Shown here: in pieces, positions 2,736 through 33,552 of the stretch | Numbering within the stretch: the stretch's first letter is position 1 | Layout: each line of letters begins with the position of its first letter | IMG/VR virus record: IMGVR_UViG_3300017527_000417 | Coordinates: 1 to 33,552 of that record | Length of the DNA stretch: 33,552 nt | Reading direction: 5' to 3' (one strand) | DNA from: a virus | The notes under the pieces: generated by a model | The model's database searches: none | What the model was told of the DNA's origin: nothing | Seen by the model: only the letters and a program-made list of their open reading frames with translations | Program-made: the position numbers and the translations under genes

Positions 2736-3293
2736 ATGGCTGACGAGCCGGTAATTACGGATGCTCCTACTGATGAGCCTAAACAACAGGTAGTATTTAA
2801 TTCACAAGCGGACTTTGACGCTGTTATACAGAATAGACTAGCTAAAGAAAAGGCTAAGTATACTGATTATGACACAACAAAGGATGAACTGGAAAAACTT
2901 CGCCAGGAAAAAAAGGAACGTGATGAGCTGGAGTTATCAGAACTAGACAAAGCAAAAAAACAGGCTGAAGAAAGCAAGCTTGAAATTGATCGGCTTAAGA
3001 CTTTTGAAACAAAAGATATTGAGCGTACAAAGAAGCTTGAAGAGTCATTTGATAAGAAACTTGATGAAAGTGATTTATCAGATGAAGAGAAAGATTTATT
3101 TACTGGTTTGCCTGTTGAAAAAAAGATTCCTTTGCTTGAAAAAGTGATAGCTTCTAAAACGGTAACACCTCCCAGCAGTGCGGGTAAATATCCTGGCGTT
3201 GGTGAACCAACAAAAGAGCAAATACTTGCTATGGACAACGGGCCGGCAAAAACAATTGCCTGGACAAAGTTTAGGAATGCTGGCGGGGTATAA
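2736..3293 (+). CDS. Capsid scaffolding protein
   Basis: A 185-residue, highly charged, mostly alpha-helical protein with long Glu/Lys/Leu coiled-coil segments (about residues 45-125), directly upstream of the major capsid gene. The start of the helical part (FNSQADFDAVIQNRLAKEKAK) matches the common phage scaffold pattern in which an F..QxxxDxxIxxRLAxExxK segment precedes the coiled coil. Scaffolds assemble with the capsid protein inside the procapsid and leave before DNA packaging. The ATG is preceded by AAAGGGAA. It is probably the first gene transcribed from the promoter-like sequence at 2671-2704. Confidence 0.8.
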   Translation: MADEPVITDAPTDEPKQQVVFNSQADFDAVIQNRLAKEKAKYTDYDTTKDELEKLRQEKKERDELELSELDKAKKQAEESKLEIDRLKTFETKDIERTKKLEESFDKKLDESDLSDEEKDLFTGLPVEKKIPLLEKVIASKTVTPPSSAGKYPGVGEPTKEQILAMDNGPAKTIAWTKFRNAGGV

Positions 3294-3315
3294 TTTTTAA
3301 ATACAAGGATGTATA

Positions 3316-4447
3316 ATGGCTAATCAAAGTTTAGTTGCTGCCATTACTGAGTTGATCAAATGGAGGTCGTTTTAGTCAGAAATGATTAAAATTATTATCG
3401 GGCAATATCGGTGAAAGCTGAGATGCTAATACCGAGATAAACAAAAGAATTAAAAAACTTTTGTCATCGTAACGCATAGCAGGTGAAACTTGAGAAAGAA
3501 TATAATCCTGCCACGAGTGTCCGGCATCTTAACAAGAAATTGAAAGATGAAAATGTATGCTGAACTTGCACGAAATGGAAGTGTAAGAACTAAAAGATAA
3601 AAAGCTTTTAGGATAACAAAATTGCCCTGAGATTACACAAGATGTGGATATGATATATCAGAATGCAGCAATAGGGCGTGGGCTCGTGAATTATCAAGAG
3701 CACCCAGGCGAAGGGGTTATAGTAGAGTTTCCAGTTTTTGATGAAGTAAGTGGATCAGCATCACCTGGAGAAGGAACTGAGCCGACGGCTCAAACGCTGA
3801 ACGTGACGATGCCGACCGCGACTATGGCGAAGCGGTCAGTTTTCGTCCAGTTGTCAGGTTTGGCAATTAAAGGTGCAGGAAGCAAGATTGTTTCTCAAAT
3901 TGGTGCTACAATGGGCATGGCGAAAGCCAAACAAGACGACGCCCAAATTTTTTCGATTGTTACGGCCACGACGGATTTCTCGAGTTCTGTGGGTGCAACA
4001 AATACAGCAATGTCAATTACAGTTGCTTTGGCTGGTTTGTTGTTAATTCAACAGGCAGAAGTTGCAGAAACTATTAATTGCGTGGTTGATGCTAATGGAT
4101 ATAATGATATTCGTACAGGCTTGTTACCTGTAGCAAATGACGATACAATAACAGGTGCATTAACAGATACAGTTTCAATTAACGGTTTGGCTTCAAGAGC
4201 TTACGGAATGAACTGGTATGTAACAGAGCGTATCGGCTCAGGTACTGTAGATGCCACAACTGAAGTAACAAATGGATTGATTTTTGTTAAGTCAGCTATT
4301 GGTTATGCACATGCTTGGAGTCCTGGGAATAATGGGCTTGAGATAGATAGAATAGCATCTTCTGATGTTAGCAATCTTATCTTGAACTATTATGATTCAG
4401 CAATTGTTACTAAGCCTACAGGAATAGTAAAAGTAGCTTACGTATAG
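3316..4447 (+). CDS. Major capsid protein, split by a group I intron (join 3316-3356, 3625-4447)
   Basis: The start MANQSLVAAITELI at 3316 hits a stop 12 codons further if read straight through. Removing 3357-3624 joins exon 1 (41 nt) to exon 2 (823 nt) in frame and gives 287 residues. The junction then reads AITELI-PEITQDVDMIY, which matches the N-terminal pattern of common phage capsid proteins that begin MANxxxTxLxDLIPEI. The rest (GLVNYQEHPGEGVIVEFPVF, then a long alpha/beta body) looks like an HK97-fold capsid protein encoded right after the scaffold. Without splicing only a GTG at 3644 could start it, which would lose the N-terminal arm and has no ribosome-binding site. Confidence 0.8.
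3357..3624 (+). other. Group I intron (probable IA type), no internal ORF
   Basis: The 268-nt insert follows group I rules: the last exon base is U (3356) and the last intron base is G (3624). Pairings fit the group I order. P1 is exon 3353-3356 with 3366-3369. P2 is a 9-bp hairpin, 3370-3378 with 3383-3391, closed by a GAAA tetraloop. P3 is 3398-3403 with 3519-3524. P4 is 3408-3412 with 3431-3435. P5 is 3416-3418 with 3425-3427. P6 is 3441-3447 with 3458-3464. P7, with one bulged base, is 3474-3480 with 3555-3560. P8 is 3525-3530 with 3544-3549. P9 is 3565-3571 with 3581-3587, and P9.1 is 3590-3596 with 3605-3611. The extra sequence between P7 and the P3 3' strand is characteristic of subgroup IA. 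P1 and P10 are weak, so the exact 5' site is less certain than the intron itself. Confidence 0.78.
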
Positions 4448-4455
4448 GGGTTTGA

Positions 4456-4674
4456 ATGAACCAAGTAAAAAAAACTGGAGCTGTGAAAACGGCTCCTTTT
4501 AACGTTGATAAATTAACCGAAGATCAATTAGAACTGGCTGTCGAAAAATGGTGCGGTGTTCATCCCAGGTATATGTGGTTTAGAGGGGCATCGATCGATA
4601 TTGATCAGTATAAGCTTTCAATGGATGGCATAAATTGGCCAGGGTTCGTGGAGAAGAAGTTTCAACCAAAATAA
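4456..4674 (+). CDS. Small conserved-looking protein after the capsid gene
   Basis: A 72-residue protein with no motif that I recognise. It has a Lys-rich start, an acidic helix (LTEDQLELAVEKW) and a C-terminal half with several aromatic residues. It begins 8 bases after the capsid stop and ends 9 bases before the glycosyltransferase gene, so it is part of the capsid operon. Its place, directly after the capsid gene, is where head decoration or connector proteins often lie, but I cannot assign a function. Confidence 0.5.
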   Translation: MNQVKKTGAVKTAPFNVDKLTEDQLELAVEKWCGVHPRYMWFRGASIDIDQYKLSMDGINWPGFVEKKFQPK

Positions 4675-4683
4675 GGAAGTTTT

Positions 4684-5577
4684 TTGAGACATAAGAATAT
4701 AGTTGTATTTATCCCAAAGGCTGGTTCAAGGCCAAGCTATGATGCAAAATTTGTTGAATCATTCATAGCGGCTAAAGACTATCTGCATGCTAAAGCTAGT
4801 GAAATTCCTTTTACTTTTACTATTAGTCAATATTTTAGCCATACTTTTCCAATTGATGCTAATCGAAATGAATGCATTTCTATGGCCATAAAGAATGATA
4901 TTGATTTATCCATCTTCTTTGACACTGACCATGTTATTCAAACAGATACATTATTGAAACTAATTAAACACGATCTTCCGGTAGTCGCTGGTGTTTATTG
5001 TAGCAAGGGTGAGCCATTTCCTCCTGTTGTTTATAGAGAGAATGATGGTAGTGTTGATTTTGATCTATTCAATGTCATTTACAAGATAGGTGATAAATCT
5101 ATTTATGAATATGAAGATTTATTCCCTGCTGATATGGTTGGCGGTGGATGTTTTGCAATTTCTTTAGATGTATTAAAGAAACTTAAAAAACCATACTGGA
5201 AGTATAGACCATTGCCGCAAGGATTGTTAACAGATGATGATAAGCAAGCTTTTAGTGGAAATACTGAGCTGGAGCGAGAGCTAGAGGAGACTTTAAAAGA
5301 TTGGTTGCCGGATACTAGATTTAAGATTGAAAATGATGTTCATAGTGCTACGGAGGATGTCTGGTTTTGGCGCAATGTTAGACAGGCTGGTTATCAGTTG
5401 ATGGTAGATCCTACTATAGTTTTACCTCATGGGCCTATTGATATGTGGGTAGATAAAGCAGTCTCAGAACATTGGTACAAGATGCGTGTTGAAGGTGCTG
5501 ACAAATTGAGTAATTGTACGATACCAGATCCTAAAAAGAATGGAAAGCATGCAAAAGCACAATCAACTAAAGGATAA
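4684..5577 (+). CDS. Glycosyltransferase, GT-A fold (family 2-like)
   Basis: A 297-residue protein with the N-terminal layout of GT-A glycosyltransferases: a beta strand near residues 5-10, an RNECISMAIKND helix, then IDLSIFFDTDH with the metal-binding DTD at 80-82. A second conserved part (DMVGGGCFAISLDVLKKL) and a later TEDVWFWRNVRQAGY segment are also usual in this family. It should transfer a sugar from a nucleotide-sugar donor. I chose the TTG start at 4684 because AAGGAA lies just upstream; the protein then starts RHKNIVVF. It sits among head genes, so capsid glycosylation or cell-surface modification are both possible. Confidence 0.75.
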   Translation: MRHKNIVVFIPKAGSRPSYDAKFVESFIAAKDYLHAKASEIPFTFTISQYFSHTFPIDANRNECISMAIKNDIDLSIFFDTDHVIQTDTLLKLIKHDLPVVAGVYCSKGEPFPPVVYRENDGSVDFDLFNVIYKIGDKSIYEYEDLFPADMVGGGCFAISLDVLKKLKKPYWKYRPLPQGLLTDDDKQAFSGNTELERELEETLKDWLPDTRFKIENDVHSATEDVWFWRNVRQAGYQLMVDPTIVLPHGPIDMWVDKAVSEHWYKMRVEGADKLSNCTIPDPKKNGKHAKAQSTKG

Positions 5578-5821
5578 TTTAGAGAGAGTAAAGGCAAAGT
5601 CTAAAGAAAGCTATATGAAGGAGAATCATACAGCAATGCCAAAGAAGATGCAAAAGAAGGAAGAAAAGGAATTGAGAAAAGCTGCAGTACATGCTGAGTC
5701 AAAGCTTCATGGGGTATGGAACCAGGAGAAGAGTAAAGCTATAGATGATTCAAAACGTCCTGAGTTTGGTTGTTATTTTGGTGGTGTTAATTTTGATAAA
5801 AATGGAAAGATCATAAGATGA
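5540..5821 (+). CDS. Small basic hypothetical protein
   Basis: A 93-residue, Lys-rich protein whose start (ATG 5540, or 5549 in the same frame) lies inside the end of the glycosyltransferase gene and whose stop overlaps the next start. It has a helical, charged middle (MPKKMQKKEEKELRKAA) and a C-terminal segment with GCYFGGVNF. I do not recognise a family. Tight coupling on both sides supports a real gene. Confidence 0.5.
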   Translation: MESMQKHNQLKDNLERVKAKSKESYMKENHTAMPKKMQKKEEKELRKAAVHAESKLHGVWNQEKSKAIDDSKRPEFGCYFGGVNFDKNGKIIR

Positions 5822-6231
5822 AATTTTTATATTTAATATTTATTGCTAGTTTCTTATTCGCACAGGGAAGGCCACAAACAAATGTATTATTCCCGTCTGG
5901 TCAGGATAGTATTTTAGAAACAGGAGCCTCGGACACATTACAATATCGTTTAGGTATTGGTGGTAAATGGAGTGCTTACTATACGCTGACAGAAACAATT
6001 ACAACAGCAGAAAAAGTTGCAGAGACGAATGAGGTAGTTGATTTGAGCGGTGATAGTAATTGGCAATGGGCAGAATTTGTACAATTAAAGATATATAACG
6101 GAGCCAGGAATATAACGAGTAATGTTTTCTATATAGGTGATAAGGCTGGAGCTGTTACGGCAATACTAGTTCCTGATTCGGTTAATGCAAATATTTTACT
6201 TTATACTAATAGTATTATAGGCGGGAACTGA
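5818..6231 (+). CDS. Secreted hypothetical protein in the head module
   Basis: A 137-residue protein with a clear Sec signal peptide: MKFLYLIFIASFLFAQ, probably cut near residue 16, with no lipobox Cys. The mature part is beta-rich and polar, with no domain I recognise. It starts inside the last codons of the previous gene. A signal peptide on a protein encoded between capsid and connector genes is odd, because virion parts are normally assembled in the cytoplasm. The ending Phe-Ala-Gln is like signal peptides of Bacteroidota and relatives. Confidence 0.6.
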   Translation: MKFLYLIFIASFLFAQGRPQTNVLFPSGQDSILETGASDTLQYRLGIGGKWSAYYTLTETITTAEKVAETNEVVDLSGDSNWQWAEFVQLKIYNGARNITSNVFYIGDKAGAVTAILVPDSVNANILLYTNSIIGGN

Positions 6232-27014: not shown

Positions 27015-27114
27015 CAAGTGGGTACGCTGGCGCAAAGATGAAAAGGCTATCTATTGGGCTCGAATAAAGCAGCAATGGATAAATATACTACCAAGTGACA
27101 GGGAGAAAAGATGA
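27007..27114 (+). CDS. Tiny Trp/Lys-rich peptide
   Basis: A 35-residue basic peptide (WVRWRKDEKAIYWARIKQQW) overlapping both the previous gene and the start of the radical-SAM gene (ATGA). The start lacks a clear ribosome-binding site and depends on coupling. Confidence 0.35.
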   Translation: MLDKWVRWRKDEKAIYWARIKQQWINILPSDREKR

Positions 27115-27689
27115 AGTTAATAAAGAAAATTATATGGAAGCTAAATAAGTTAAAGCGTGGTGATATAGTAACCATTAGGCCAATAGACAGGTGCAACTTA
27201 TCTTGTGATTATTGTATAGCTGTTATTGATGGCAGGGATATAAAGAGTAAAGAGCCTGTTTTAAGTGTTCAGGAATGGATGGAAATACTAGACCAGGAAA
27301 AACACAGGATAGTTCAGATAACAGGTGGCGAGCCTATGCTATATCCACATATTAGAGAGTTAGTAAAAGAACTTATAAAGAAGTATCATGTAAGGATATT
27401 CTCTAATTTGACAATATATAGAGACTTACCAAAGAGTAGCAAGATCCGTTTTCATGCAACATATCATAGATCGGCAAGCTTGAGAAAGTTTCTAATTAAC
27501 CTGGACAGATACCGTAAAAAATATTTGGTTGGTGTTTGGGAGATAGAAACAAAATTTGTAAGCGGCAGCCATTGGAAGAAGGAGAAGAAAAGCCAGGAAG
27601 AGATGCAATGTAGTGCAGAATATTCTTATAATTCCAAAGGCAAAAAGGTATATATGGCTTGCCATGTAGACAAGGAGCTAAACAAATGA
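27111..27689 (+). CDS. Small radical-SAM protein
   Basis: A 192-residue protein with the radical-SAM cluster motif CNLSCDYC (CxxxCxxC: Cys28, Cys32, Cys35) and the SAM-binding TGGEPMLYP (GGEP 72-75). Radical-SAM enzymes use an iron-sulphur cluster and SAM to start radical reactions. Two further Cys near the end (SCA-type segment and ACHVD) might hold another cluster. It is shorter than most family members, and no QueE, BtrN or maturase signature is evident. Its last residues, KELNK, are encoded by a cassette copy. GGGAGAAAAG precedes the ATG. Confidence 0.75.
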   Translation: MKLIKKIIWKLNKLKRGDIVTIRPIDRCNLSCDYCIAVIDGRDIKSKEPVLSVQEWMEILDQEKHRIVQITGGEPMLYPHIRELVKELIKKYHVRIFSNLTIYRDLPKSSKIRFHATYHRSASLRKFLINLDRYRKKYLVGVWEIETKFVSGSHWKKEKKSQEEMQCSAEYSYNSKGKKVYMACHVDKELNK

Positions 27690-29018: not shown

Positions 29019-29041
29019 GTAGAAGCCAGGAGTATGTATGA
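28982..29041 (+). CDS. Doubtful 19-residue Com-like leader ORF
   Basis: A GTG start with GGAG 5 bases before it opens a 19-codon frame containing VRCKFCKG and ending in ATGA overlap with the methyltransferase start. The RCKxC pattern recalls the first zinc knuckle of Mu Com, a translational activator encoded just before mom, but the second knuckle is absent. It may be a coupling leader only, and it overlaps the structured RNA. Confidence 0.25.
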   Translation: MTLIGVRCKFCKGRSQEYV

Positions 29042-29679
29042 AAGTGCTGAATTTATATGCTGGAATAGGTGGTAACAGGAAGCTGTGGACGGGTGTTGAA
29101 GTTACGGCAGTTGAGAATAATCCTGAGATAGCGAAGATTTACCAGGACTTTTTCCCTGATGACACGGTGGTGGTTGGTGATGCTCATCAATATTTATTAG
29201 ATCATTATAAAGAGTTTGATTTTATTTGGAGTAGCCCACCTTGCCAAAGTCATAGTAAAATGATGAAAGCAACGAGATACGATTTAAGAAGATACCCCGA
29301 CATGAAATTGTATGAAGAGGTCTTGTGGTTAAAGCATTTTTATGCTGGTAAGTATATTCTTGAGAACGTTGAGCCTTATTATTCTCCACTAATAACATCA
29401 CAAAAGATTGGCAGGCATTTAATATGGAGTAATTTTTATATTAAACCATATAATGAACCAAACATAAAAGACTTTATTTCTATTGGTGGCATTGCCGGTG
29501 CTAATAAATTAAAAAAATGGTTAGGGATGGAATATAAAGGCCAAATTTATTATGATGGTAATCATGAACCTTCGCAAGTTTTAAGAAATTGCGTTCATCC
29601 TGAGCTTGGCCTTCACATATTAAACTGCGCTCTTGAGCGTATAGACAAGAACACGTATTCACAGAAAGAATTATTTTAG
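29038..29679 (+). CDS. C5-cytosine DNA methyltransferase
   Basis: A 213-residue protein with motif I at the very start (LNLYAGIGGN, residues 4-13), motif II ending VENNPE, and the catalytic motif IV SSPPCQSHS with Cys69. After the ENVEPYY segment (ENV motif VI) the target-recognition part is very short. It is about half the size of usual C5 enzymes, but phages often carry such compact forms. It would methylate cytosine in phage or host DNA, for example against restriction. CCAGGAG precedes the ATG. Confidence 0.83.
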   Translation: MKVLNLYAGIGGNRKLWTGVEVTAVENNPEIAKIYQDFFPDDTVVVGDAHQYLLDHYKEFDFIWSSPPCQSHSKMMKATRYDLRRYPDMKLYEEVLWLKHFYAGKYILENVEPYYSPLITSQKIGRHLIWSNFYIKPYNEPNIKDFISIGGIAGANKLKKWLGMEYKGQIYYDGNHEPSQVLRNCVHPELGLHILNCALERIDKNTYSQKELF

Positions 29680-30587: not shown

Positions 30588-31818
30588 CTATTATAACGAT
30601 CAGCACAGGTTTCTTATTATCACTGCCGGCAGAAGGTCAAGAAAAACACTAATAGGAAAGCGTAAACTATTGATAAGTGCATTAGAGAAACCAGGCAGAT
30701 ACTTTCATGGAGCACCTACGCACAAGCAAGCAAAGGACATCTTCTGGGACAGCCTCAAGCAAGACACTACAATGTTTCGCACTCAAAGACCAAATGAGAC
30801 CGATAGGATAATTAATTTATACAATGGTTCTGAAATACACGTATTAGGATTAGACAGACCTGAACGTATAGAAGGCCAGCCCTGGCATGGATGTCATATA
30901 ACAGAGATAGCCAATGTAAAAGACGGAGCCTGGCAAGCTAATATAAGACCAGCTTTAGCAGATACTGAAGGCTGGGCAATTCTCGACGGTGTACCTGAAG
31001 GCAAAAACTTTTTATATGATTTAGCTCTATATGCTTGTGATCATGCAATACCAAAAACTGAACCAATCAAGGGGGCTTATGGATTTAATCCGGCAGACAA
31101 ACAGTGGGCATTTTATACTTGGTTTTCATCAGATGTTCTTAGCGCGGGAGAAATTCAAGCTAATAAAAACACCCTTGATGAAAGAACTTATAAACAAGAA
31201 TACGAAGGAAGCTTTGAAGATGTTCAGGGATTACTCTATTATGCCTTCGGACAACATAACGCGTCTAATTGTAAATTCGACAAAAACGATATAGTACATA
31301 TCGGAATGGATTTCAATGTTAATCCAATGACAGCAACATTTAGTCATATTGAAGGTGATGTTATAAATGTATTTGGTGAGGCGCATCTAGTTAATTCAAA
31401 TACTATGGAGATGGCTAAACACATCAAAGAGCGGTTTTTACCTAAACAATGTTATATCTATCCAGATGCTACGGGAAAAGCAATGGAATCAAATGCTAGT
31501 GAGTCGGATCTTGCGATACTCAGGAAAGAAGGATTTGTTGTACGTGCCAGGACGAGTAACCCATACGTCAAAGATCGCGTTGCTGCTGTTAATAGTAAGC
31601 TGAAGTCATTCGATGGTAAAGTAAGATTGAATATTAACTTTAAGAACTGTCCTAAATTAGTAAATGATTTTAACAGGGTAGAAGCTACTGATGATGGACG
31701 GGAGAATAAGAAGCAGGAAGATGAAGGCTTAGTACATATATCAAGTGCTTTGGGTTATAACATAGCTTATCTATTCCCTGTGCGGCAGCGTACAGTAACA
31801 AATGTGGTGAGGCATTGA
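30523..31818 (+). CDS. Terminase large subunit
   Basis: A 431-residue protein. The ATPase part has a Walker A-like TAGRRSRKT (residues 34-42), a HGAPTHKQAKDIFWDSL segment and the Walker B region around WAILDGVPEG. The nuclease part begins near residue 260 with HIGMDFNVNPMT, where the first metal-binding Asp lies, and continues with CYIYPDATGKAM. It cuts and pumps DNA through the portal. The start is uncertain: TTG at 30523 or 30529, both inside the small-subunit gene. Confidence 0.9.
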   Translation: MLSLTQNQSWTKLRNLTQQQINYYNDQHRFLIITAGRRSRKTLIGKRKLLISALEKPGRYFHGAPTHKQAKDIFWDSLKQDTTMFRTQRPNETDRIINLYNGSEIHVLGLDRPERIEGQPWHGCHITEIANVKDGAWQANIRPALADTEGWAILDGVPEGKNFLYDLALYACDHAIPKTEPIKGAYGFNPADKQWAFYTWFSSDVLSAGEIQANKNTLDERTYKQEYEGSFEDVQGLLYYAFGQHNASNCKFDKNDIVHIGMDFNVNPMTATFSHIEGDVINVFGEAHLVNSNTMEMAKHIKERFLPKQCYIYPDATGKAMESNASESDLAILRKEGFVVRARTSNPYVKDRVAAVNSKLKSFDGKVRLNINFKNCPKLVNDFNRVEATDDGRENKKQEDEGLVHISSALGYNIAYLFPVRQRTVTNVVRH

Positions 31819-32489
31819 TGAACTTACTTAACGTCGATTGCATGGAATATATGAAGGGCTGCAAGGATAAACACTTTGAATTGGCTATTGTTGATCCGCC
31901 TTATGGGATAGGAGAGGATGGGGGTAAAGGTGTTAGAATTTCTCCATCAAGACCAAATAGTTATAATAGAAAACCAAAATACGAAGCAAAAGGATGGGAT
32001 AAAAAGCCTCCAAATAAAGATTATTTTATAGAACTTTTAAGAGTTTCTAAAAATGTTATTATTTTTGGGGCTAACCACTTTATCGAAAACATACCAAAAG
32101 CAAACAGTTCATGTTGGATTGTTTGGGATAAAAAGAATGAAGGTACTGATTTTGCTGACTGTGAATTGGCTTGGTCAAACATGAAGACAACAGTAAGGAA
32201 ATTTAGAGTTCATAAGTTTCTCGGGACTCGAGGTGGTCAATTATGTATCCACCCTACTCAAAAACCAGTAAAACTCTACAAATGGCTATTAACACACTTC
32301 GCTAAAGAAGGCCAAAGTATCTTTGATTCTCACGGCGGTTCAATGTCATTAGCAATAGCTTGTCATGATTTAGGATTTAACGCAACCATTTGTGAGCTTG
32401 ACAAAGATTATTATGATGCAGCCGTTAAAAGATATAACAACCACATTAGCCAAACAGATTTATTTAAAAACGACAAGGAAGTCGCATGA
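31815..32489 (+). CDS. DNA methyltransferase, N4/N6 amino type (beta class)
   Basis: A 224-residue protein with motif IV DPPYG (27-31) near the start and HPTQKPVKLYKWLL, then IFDSHGGSMSLAIAC (the SAM site) near the end. This order is that of beta-class amino methylases. Other phage members read DTHxGSGS at the SAM site; here it is DSHGGSMS. It methylates adenine or cytosine amino groups in DNA. It lies between terminase and portal, with overlap to the terminase stop. It is encoded with late genes, so it may mark DNA before or during packaging. Confidence 0.85.
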   Translation: MMNLLNVDCMEYMKGCKDKHFELAIVDPPYGIGEDGGKGVRISPSRPNSYNRKPKYEAKGWDKKPPNKDYFIELLRVSKNVIIFGANHFIENIPKANSSCWIVWDKKNEGTDFADCELAWSNMKTTVRKFRVHKFLGTRGGQLCIHPTQKPVKLYKWLLTHFAKEGQSIFDSHGGSMSLAIACHDLGFNATICELDKDYYDAAVKRYNNHISQTDLFKNDKEVA

Positions 32490-32501
32490 TAAGGATATCA
32501 A

Positions 32502-33552
32502 ATGATATTATCAATAAACAGTAAACAAGATTTATCCAAAGAGCTGGTATTAAAGACAGCTTGGGAGAATATTGACAAAAGCAACCAGATGGAAGTTGAT
32601 GAGCGTAACAAACTACTTGACTTCTATGATGGCCAACAGGACAAGCCGGAGTATCTTGAGGTATATGGTTTTGAGAATAAACAATCATTACCTTTGCAGA
32701 CGATAAACTTATTCAAGCGTATTATAGATAAGATTTCTCTTGTTTACAAATATCAGCCTGATAGGACTTTTGAAGATGATGAAGAGTCATCTTATGAGGC
32801 ATGGATAAATGACAACAGGGATAACAGAAAATATACGGTATGGCTGAAAGAGGCAGAGCGTAAAAAGAAGGCTCTCGGTATGGTATTAAAGAGGCCGATA
32901 TATTTACCTGATAAAGGCTGGCGTTTTTTTGTTGATACTGAGTGGGAGCCTCACTTTGCTATTGGCGATCCATTTACACCGATTGCTTATTCTATACCTA
33001 TTAGACATGACACTACAAATACTGATAATAACCAGGAAGACTGGTGGATGTTCTGGAGCGATAAGCATTACTTCTGGTATCAGAAAGACTCCAAGAAAGT
33101 CTTTTACGATCCTGCTTTCCCTACAGGTGAACACAAGCTTGGCTTGATGCCTATTGTAGAATCGAGGACAAATTTTCCTACTGAGGACTATTGGGTAACA
33201 GGTGCTACTGATTTAATGCAGAGTAACCAAAGTATTAATATATCTCTTAACAACTTGAATTATGCGATACATTATCAGGCATTTGATCAGCCGTGGGCAC
33301 AAGGTGTTGATGATGAAGAAGCTAAAAAGATAACAACGGGGCCAGATACTTTACCTACTTTACCTGATGGTGCTAGTCTTAACTTACTCGGCTATAGTCC
33401 TAAGATTGTTGAAATGACTGAGGCAATTAAGTTTGAGGTTGAAGCAATAAGTAGAAATTATAATGTTAATGTTGATTGGTCGATGAGTGGTGATCCTTCT
33501 AGCGGCTTTGCGCTATTAGTTAAGAATATAGACTTAATGGAAGCGCGTGAAG
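32502..33552 (+). CDS. Portal protein, N-terminal part (continues at 1-353)
   Basis: The first 350 codons of the portal gene, cut by the window end. It has the N-terminal marks of SPP1 gp6-like portals: a WENIDKSNQMEVDERNKLLD helix, DFYDGQQ, then NKQSLPLQTINLFKRIIDK, and a later EAISRNYNVNVDWSMSGDPS with GFAL. Position after terminase agrees. With bases 10-353 joined, the gene encodes 464 residues. Twelve portals form the DNA channel and head vertex. Confidence 0.88.
   Translation, partial: MILSINSKQDLSKELVLKTAWENIDKSNQMEVDERNKLLDFYDGQQDKPEYLEVYGFENKQSLPLQTINLFKRIIDKISLVYKYQPDRTFEDDEESSYEAWINDNRDNRKYTVWLKEAERKKKALGMVLKRPIYLPDKGWRFFVDTEWEPHFAIGDPFTPIAYSIPIRHDTTNTDNNQEDWWMFWSDKHYFWYQKDSKKVFYDPAFPTGEHKLGLMPIVESRTNFPTEDYWVTGATDLMQSNQSINISLNNLNYAIHYQAFDQPWAQGVDDEEAKKITTGPDTLPTLPDGASLNLLGYSPKIVEMTEAIKFEVEAISRNYNVNVDWSMSGDPSSGFALLVKNIDLMEARE
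33544..33552 (+). repeat. 9-base terminal overlap with window start
   Basis: CGCGTGAAG at 33544-33552 equals bases 1-9. Reading through the join keeps the portal frame (E-A-R-E-D-D-V-E), so the overlap is where the circular or permuted genome was opened. Confidence 0.85.

Follow-up and report, generated by a model that had tools for sequence, protein, structure and literature searches.

A predicted ORF-less group IA intron splits the major capsid gene of a virus record and belongs to a phage intron subfamily missed by Rfam RF00028 in all loci tested

Positions 3357-3624 of the window, here meaning the whole stretch analysed, a single virus record of 33,552 bases from a tailed phage, are almost certainly a group IA self-splicing intron of the major capsid pre-mRNA. 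A sequence-only reading had already proposed an ORF-less intron of group I, type IA, for this gene, and the proposal is now backed by DNA homology, covariation, a bridge to a T4 intron and alignment of the capsid protein. The IA assignment draws on the stem P7.1 between P7 and P3' and on the T4 bridge, and covers both IA1 and IA2. The predicted gene layout is as follows.

3316..3356, + strand: capsid exon 1, 41 nt (13 codons and 2 nt), ending in U; placed by alignment with the N-termini of intron-free capsids
3357..3624, + strand: predicted ORF-less group IA intron, 268 nt, with a terminal G (omega G); placed by DNA matches with phage introns that stop at 3624, by covariation and by a match to model R1
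3625..4447, + strand: capsid exon 2, major head protein, 823 nt, resuming with ...CCT GAG ATT

The ATG at 3316, with AAGGA just upstream, opens a frame reading MANQSLVAAITELIKWRSF which, if unspliced, stops at 3373-3375; this in-frame UAG lies inside P2 and ends unspliced translation 19 nt into the intron. Removal of 3357-3624 leaves joined exons of 864 nt, equal to 287 codons plus a stop, with the expected exon joint GAGTTGAT followed directly by CCCTGAG. The earlier description of a capsid frame broken after 13 codons and resumed 268 nt on had the coordinates right, its sum for a kept frame (41 + 823 = 864 nt) is correct, and the U and G that it placed before the insert and at its end are present as U3356 and G3624. 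Since a U must precede the intron and the codon phase must be kept, only U3356 and U3353 could serve as the 5' splice site. U3353 would create the joint E-F-P, unlike the I-P and I-S of homologues, and U3356 was preferred because it yields the I-P joint found in homologues.

Searched alone, the exon 2 protein matched nothing among phages or viral contigs, and capsid relatives were reached by way of terminase relatives, which led to the capsid of locus L013 and from there to the capsid family. The L013 capsid gene matched residues 1 to 281 of the joined protein (tblastn, E 3e-8), and a search with the L013 capsid returned 17 loci, its own contig included. A capsid profile was assembled from the distinct proteins of these loci together with that of L012, with the window left out, and the joined 287-aa protein matched it from residue 1 at E 3.4e-24 with no gap across the joint, where the homologues read MANETTTSTLDDLISPL or MANETTTSTVTETIPTI and the window reads MANQSLVAAITELIPEI. 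The sequence-only reading had expected the joined frame to give a normal capsid start and had suggested aligning the spliced protein with insert-free homologues; the alignment runs gap-free through the joint. The homologues were identified as major head proteins by PHROG matches down to 1e-29 and are matched by solved phage capsids such as P-SCSP1u gp19 (E 3e-9), while direct matches of the window's own capsid protein are weak. No copy of the intron was present in any of the loci with intron-free capsid homologues. As the homologues align through the joint from residue 1, the capsid gene is therefore interrupted.

The insert folds better than its shuffles (z -4.4, with 0 of 200 as good), and the following elements were laid out on it.

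3353..3369, + strand: predicted P1, 3353-3357 with 3365-3369, with the wobble U3356-G3366 at the 5' splice site; from sequence pairing
3370..3391, + strand: P2 hairpin, 9 bp with a GAAA loop; from fold and covariation
3399..3404, + strand: P3 5' strand, pairing with 3518-3523; 95% of cells paired, double changes in 3 of 6 pairs
3408-3413/3430-3435, + strand: P4; from covariation, 94% of cells paired
3416-3418/3425-3427, + strand: P5, connected to P4 by AA joining segments; from covariation
3436..3468, + strand: P6 and P6a; 97% paired, double changes in 9 of 10 pairs
3474..3478, + strand: P7 5' strand, pairing with 3556-3560 across P3 to give the group I pseudoknot; predicted guanosine site
3479..3511, + strand: P7.1, an additional stem of IA type that separates P7 from P3'; 97% paired, double changes in 4 of 5 pairs
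3518-3523, + strand: P3'; from covariation
3525-3530/3544-3549, + strand: P8; from covariation, 85% of cells paired
3556-3560, + strand: P7'; from the covariation count
3565-3571/3581-3587, + strand: P9; from covariation
3590-3596/3605-3611, + strand: P9.1; from covariation

Covariation was counted from P2 to P9.1 in 67 sequences, with the helices as drawn on the window. Paired cells made up 90.1% of 4150, as against 32-42% when the strands were slid by 1-3 columns, and double-change cells numbered 956, where shuffles gave 302 (sd 17) and sliding never more than 229, all cell counts being inflated by related rows among the 67 sequences. Double changes occurred at 51 of the 64 pairs. P7 was paired in 67/67 sequences with one double change (L006); the search pattern fixed part of the P7 5' strand and of P3' for most members, and invariance there is partly by construction, yet P7' lies outside the pattern and still pairs in 67/67, and the double change comes from L006, a locus found by BLAST. 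The least conserved helix is P2, whose outer pairs are ~61% paired. The order P3-P4-P5-P6-P7-P3'-P8-P7', with P7 crossing P3, is that of group I introns; all the helices that had been sketched from the letters (P2, P3 to P9 and P9.1) gained support from covariation, and the extra IA-type sequence noticed between P7 and P3' corresponds to the covarying P7.1. An alternative P1 using GUCAG at 3375-3379 was discarded, as it conflicts with the covarying P2.

Searches with the insert placed it in a large phage intron family. BLASTN against phages at E 1e-3 returned 36 records, headed by Bacillus phage vB_BsuS_PJN02 (OM634653, locus L002), whose match of 81% identity over 257 nt ends exactly at 3624. 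The two introns share the ribozyme, the 3' end, the preceding U and the terminal G; the PJN02 intron differs in its length of 1145 nt, in carrying ORFs annotated as 'mobile intron protein' and endonuclease ahead of P2 (in the P1 loop), and in its host gene, a RecD-like helicase whose exon flanks are unrelated to those of the window. Joining the PJN02 exons without the intron rebuilds the Walker A motif GGGGMGKSW, in FLVGGGGMGKSWLQRILLELI. Other relatives were located within or next to tape-measure genes in phages of Clostridioides and Staphylococcus; a crAss-like phage carries a relative as well, as does a rodent-gut phage in which the annotated major capsid protein is interrupted at several points. 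With one exact core pattern, at least 119 viral stretches were found to carry the family, the commonest 3' exon families among the matches listed being terminase large subunit, tape measure, polymerase and NrdD. Two family copies lie close together in L052 (8941-9116 and 9487-9647) and likewise in L003 (2500-2687 and 3029-3197).

A covariance search with Rfam RF00028, proposed earlier as a check on the intron, was run and gave no match when the window was searched at the gathering score, nor in the local stretch at E 10. The same model at the gathering score found no family intron in L002-L009 or in 19 further loci among L019-L116, where its one match was to a second, different intron, in L024; even at E 1 it returned nothing in L002 and L005. 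As a positive control, it matched three T4 introns, with scores of 105, 40 and 36 bits. Because it misses this family's introns in 27 other loci and matches those of T4, its silence is uninformative here: RF00028 is an invalid test for this intron subfamily, and its result in the window is a false negative. Model R1, covering P3-P8 of 38 family members, scored the window at 153.9 bits (E 3e-38, with the window in its training set) and recovered the family mostly at 114-164 bits. R1 also detected the T4 nrdD intron inside the RF00028 match, at an E of 1.8e-6 that is approximate owing to rough calibration, and kept register through P7'; it missed the T4 nrdB and td introns in L141, which RF00028 detects. 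This bridge to T4 nrdD, together with the pattern of RF00028 results, therefore assigns the family to group IA, at a distance from what RF00028 models.

By family membership, splicing would be initiated by guanosine, with P7 binding the guanosine and P1 marking the 5' splice site through U3356-G3366, and two transesterifications would join exon 1 to exon 2 in the mRNA for the 287-aa capsid protein. Translation of unspliced RNA would stop at the UAG before the catalytic core, which would keep ribosomes off the ribozyme.

Were the insert instead an untranslated leader, with the capsid starting at the internal GTG 3644, splicing would be unneeded, and an uninterrupted 267-aa ORF does run from that codon. 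Intron-free homologues, however, start 20 residues earlier and cross the joint; the earlier proposal had named homologues starting at 3644 as what would overturn it, and they begin at the equivalent of 3316. Just upstream of 3644 there is no clear ribosome site, in contrast to the AAGGA before 3316, and the insert itself shows a conserved ribozyme fold, so that this reading is very improbable. It is equally hard to credit that the intron is splicing-defective and the contig derived from a defective or assembly-minor genome: P1 is indeed short, with only five pairs, two of them wobbles, but the window intron retains every invariant position of the family and each core helix, both exons keep open frames, and the capsid has in other respects been well conserved. 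An intron able to splice thus remains strongly preferred.

Capsid-gene group I introns and ORF-less phage introns are already documented, and the window intron joins a large recognised kind. The T4 td, nrdB and nrdD introns share with it the group IA class, the helix order, a similar J6/7-P7 region and the terminal G, whereas they carry GIY-YIG or HNH endonuclease genes, lie in nucleotide-metabolism genes and are detectable by RF00028. In mycobacteriophages, the LittleE intron likewise lies within the major capsid gene, and RT-PCR together with N-terminal sequencing demonstrated its splicing (PMC3706429), although it is 820 nt long, is a probable group I intron of unclear subtype and bears a LAGLIDADG-like ORF on the opposite strand. 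The BAKA intron, of 265 bp with splicing shown by RT-PCR (PMC3706429), is also ORF-less and in a phage structural gene, a likeness drawn from its published description, but that gene encodes a minor tail protein of a mycobacteriophage. A lactococcal phage capsid intron is cited in the same paper (PMC3706429). Group I introns are also known from the MCP of Delta and Zeta crAss-like phages (PMC7886860), and in bajarodcaudo virus 1 (PQ006092.1) R1 detected three clear copies and one weaker in the annotated major capsid gene (2919-6071), which is split several times; unlike the window, these capsid genes hold multiple introns each, several with endonuclease ORFs. Jug phages average 18.5 group I introns of ~206 nt per genome, with splicing of 37/76 backed by metatranscriptomes (PMC12363816), and IA2 makes up over half of catalogued viral group I introns (PMC11835236).

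Transfer to a new site most likely brought the intron into the capsid gene, because its closest relatives occupy other genes of other phages with unrelated flanks. As the sequence-only reading had noted, the insert encodes no homing endonuclease, its longest ORF being 33 aa, and no obvious free-standing one emerged among the ORFs scanned with Pfam and PHROGs (many of the window ORFs, not every small one), where the sole nuclease match of that sort was NinG/Rap, a recombination nuclease. An endonuclease gene would have been lost or never carried, and the route of transfer may have involved an endonuclease since lost, an endonuclease acting in trans, or reverse splicing. That the intron entered the capsid gene with no endonuclease of its own, for instance by reverse splicing at a match to its short guide sequence alone, and that the subfamily spreads likewise on a wide scale in phage late genes, is unlikely.

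No exact end repeat was found in the window. The portal gene is apparently split between its ends (32502-33551, open at the end, and a portal-like stretch at 30-353), which suggests that the genome is circularly permuted and almost complete, its ends not overlapping. A scaffold-like gene (2736-3293) precedes the capsid ATG at 3316. Two DNA methylase genes (C5 and N6/N4 type) and a Methyltransf_24 gene occupy 29038-29679, 31815-32489 and 2062-2661, the last two flanked by head genes, and a radical SAM gene (27111-27689) is present on this small phage genome. A terminase search of genome contigs for host assignment gave no match.

The window intron offers a clean and minimal case, with no ORF, in which predicted RNA splicing would be required to make a virion protein that is both essential and highly expressed. 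It also reveals a widespread phage group IA subfamily that was invisible to RF00028 in all loci tested, and split capsid, terminase, tape-measure and polymerase genes may be misannotated where RF00028 is the sole test.
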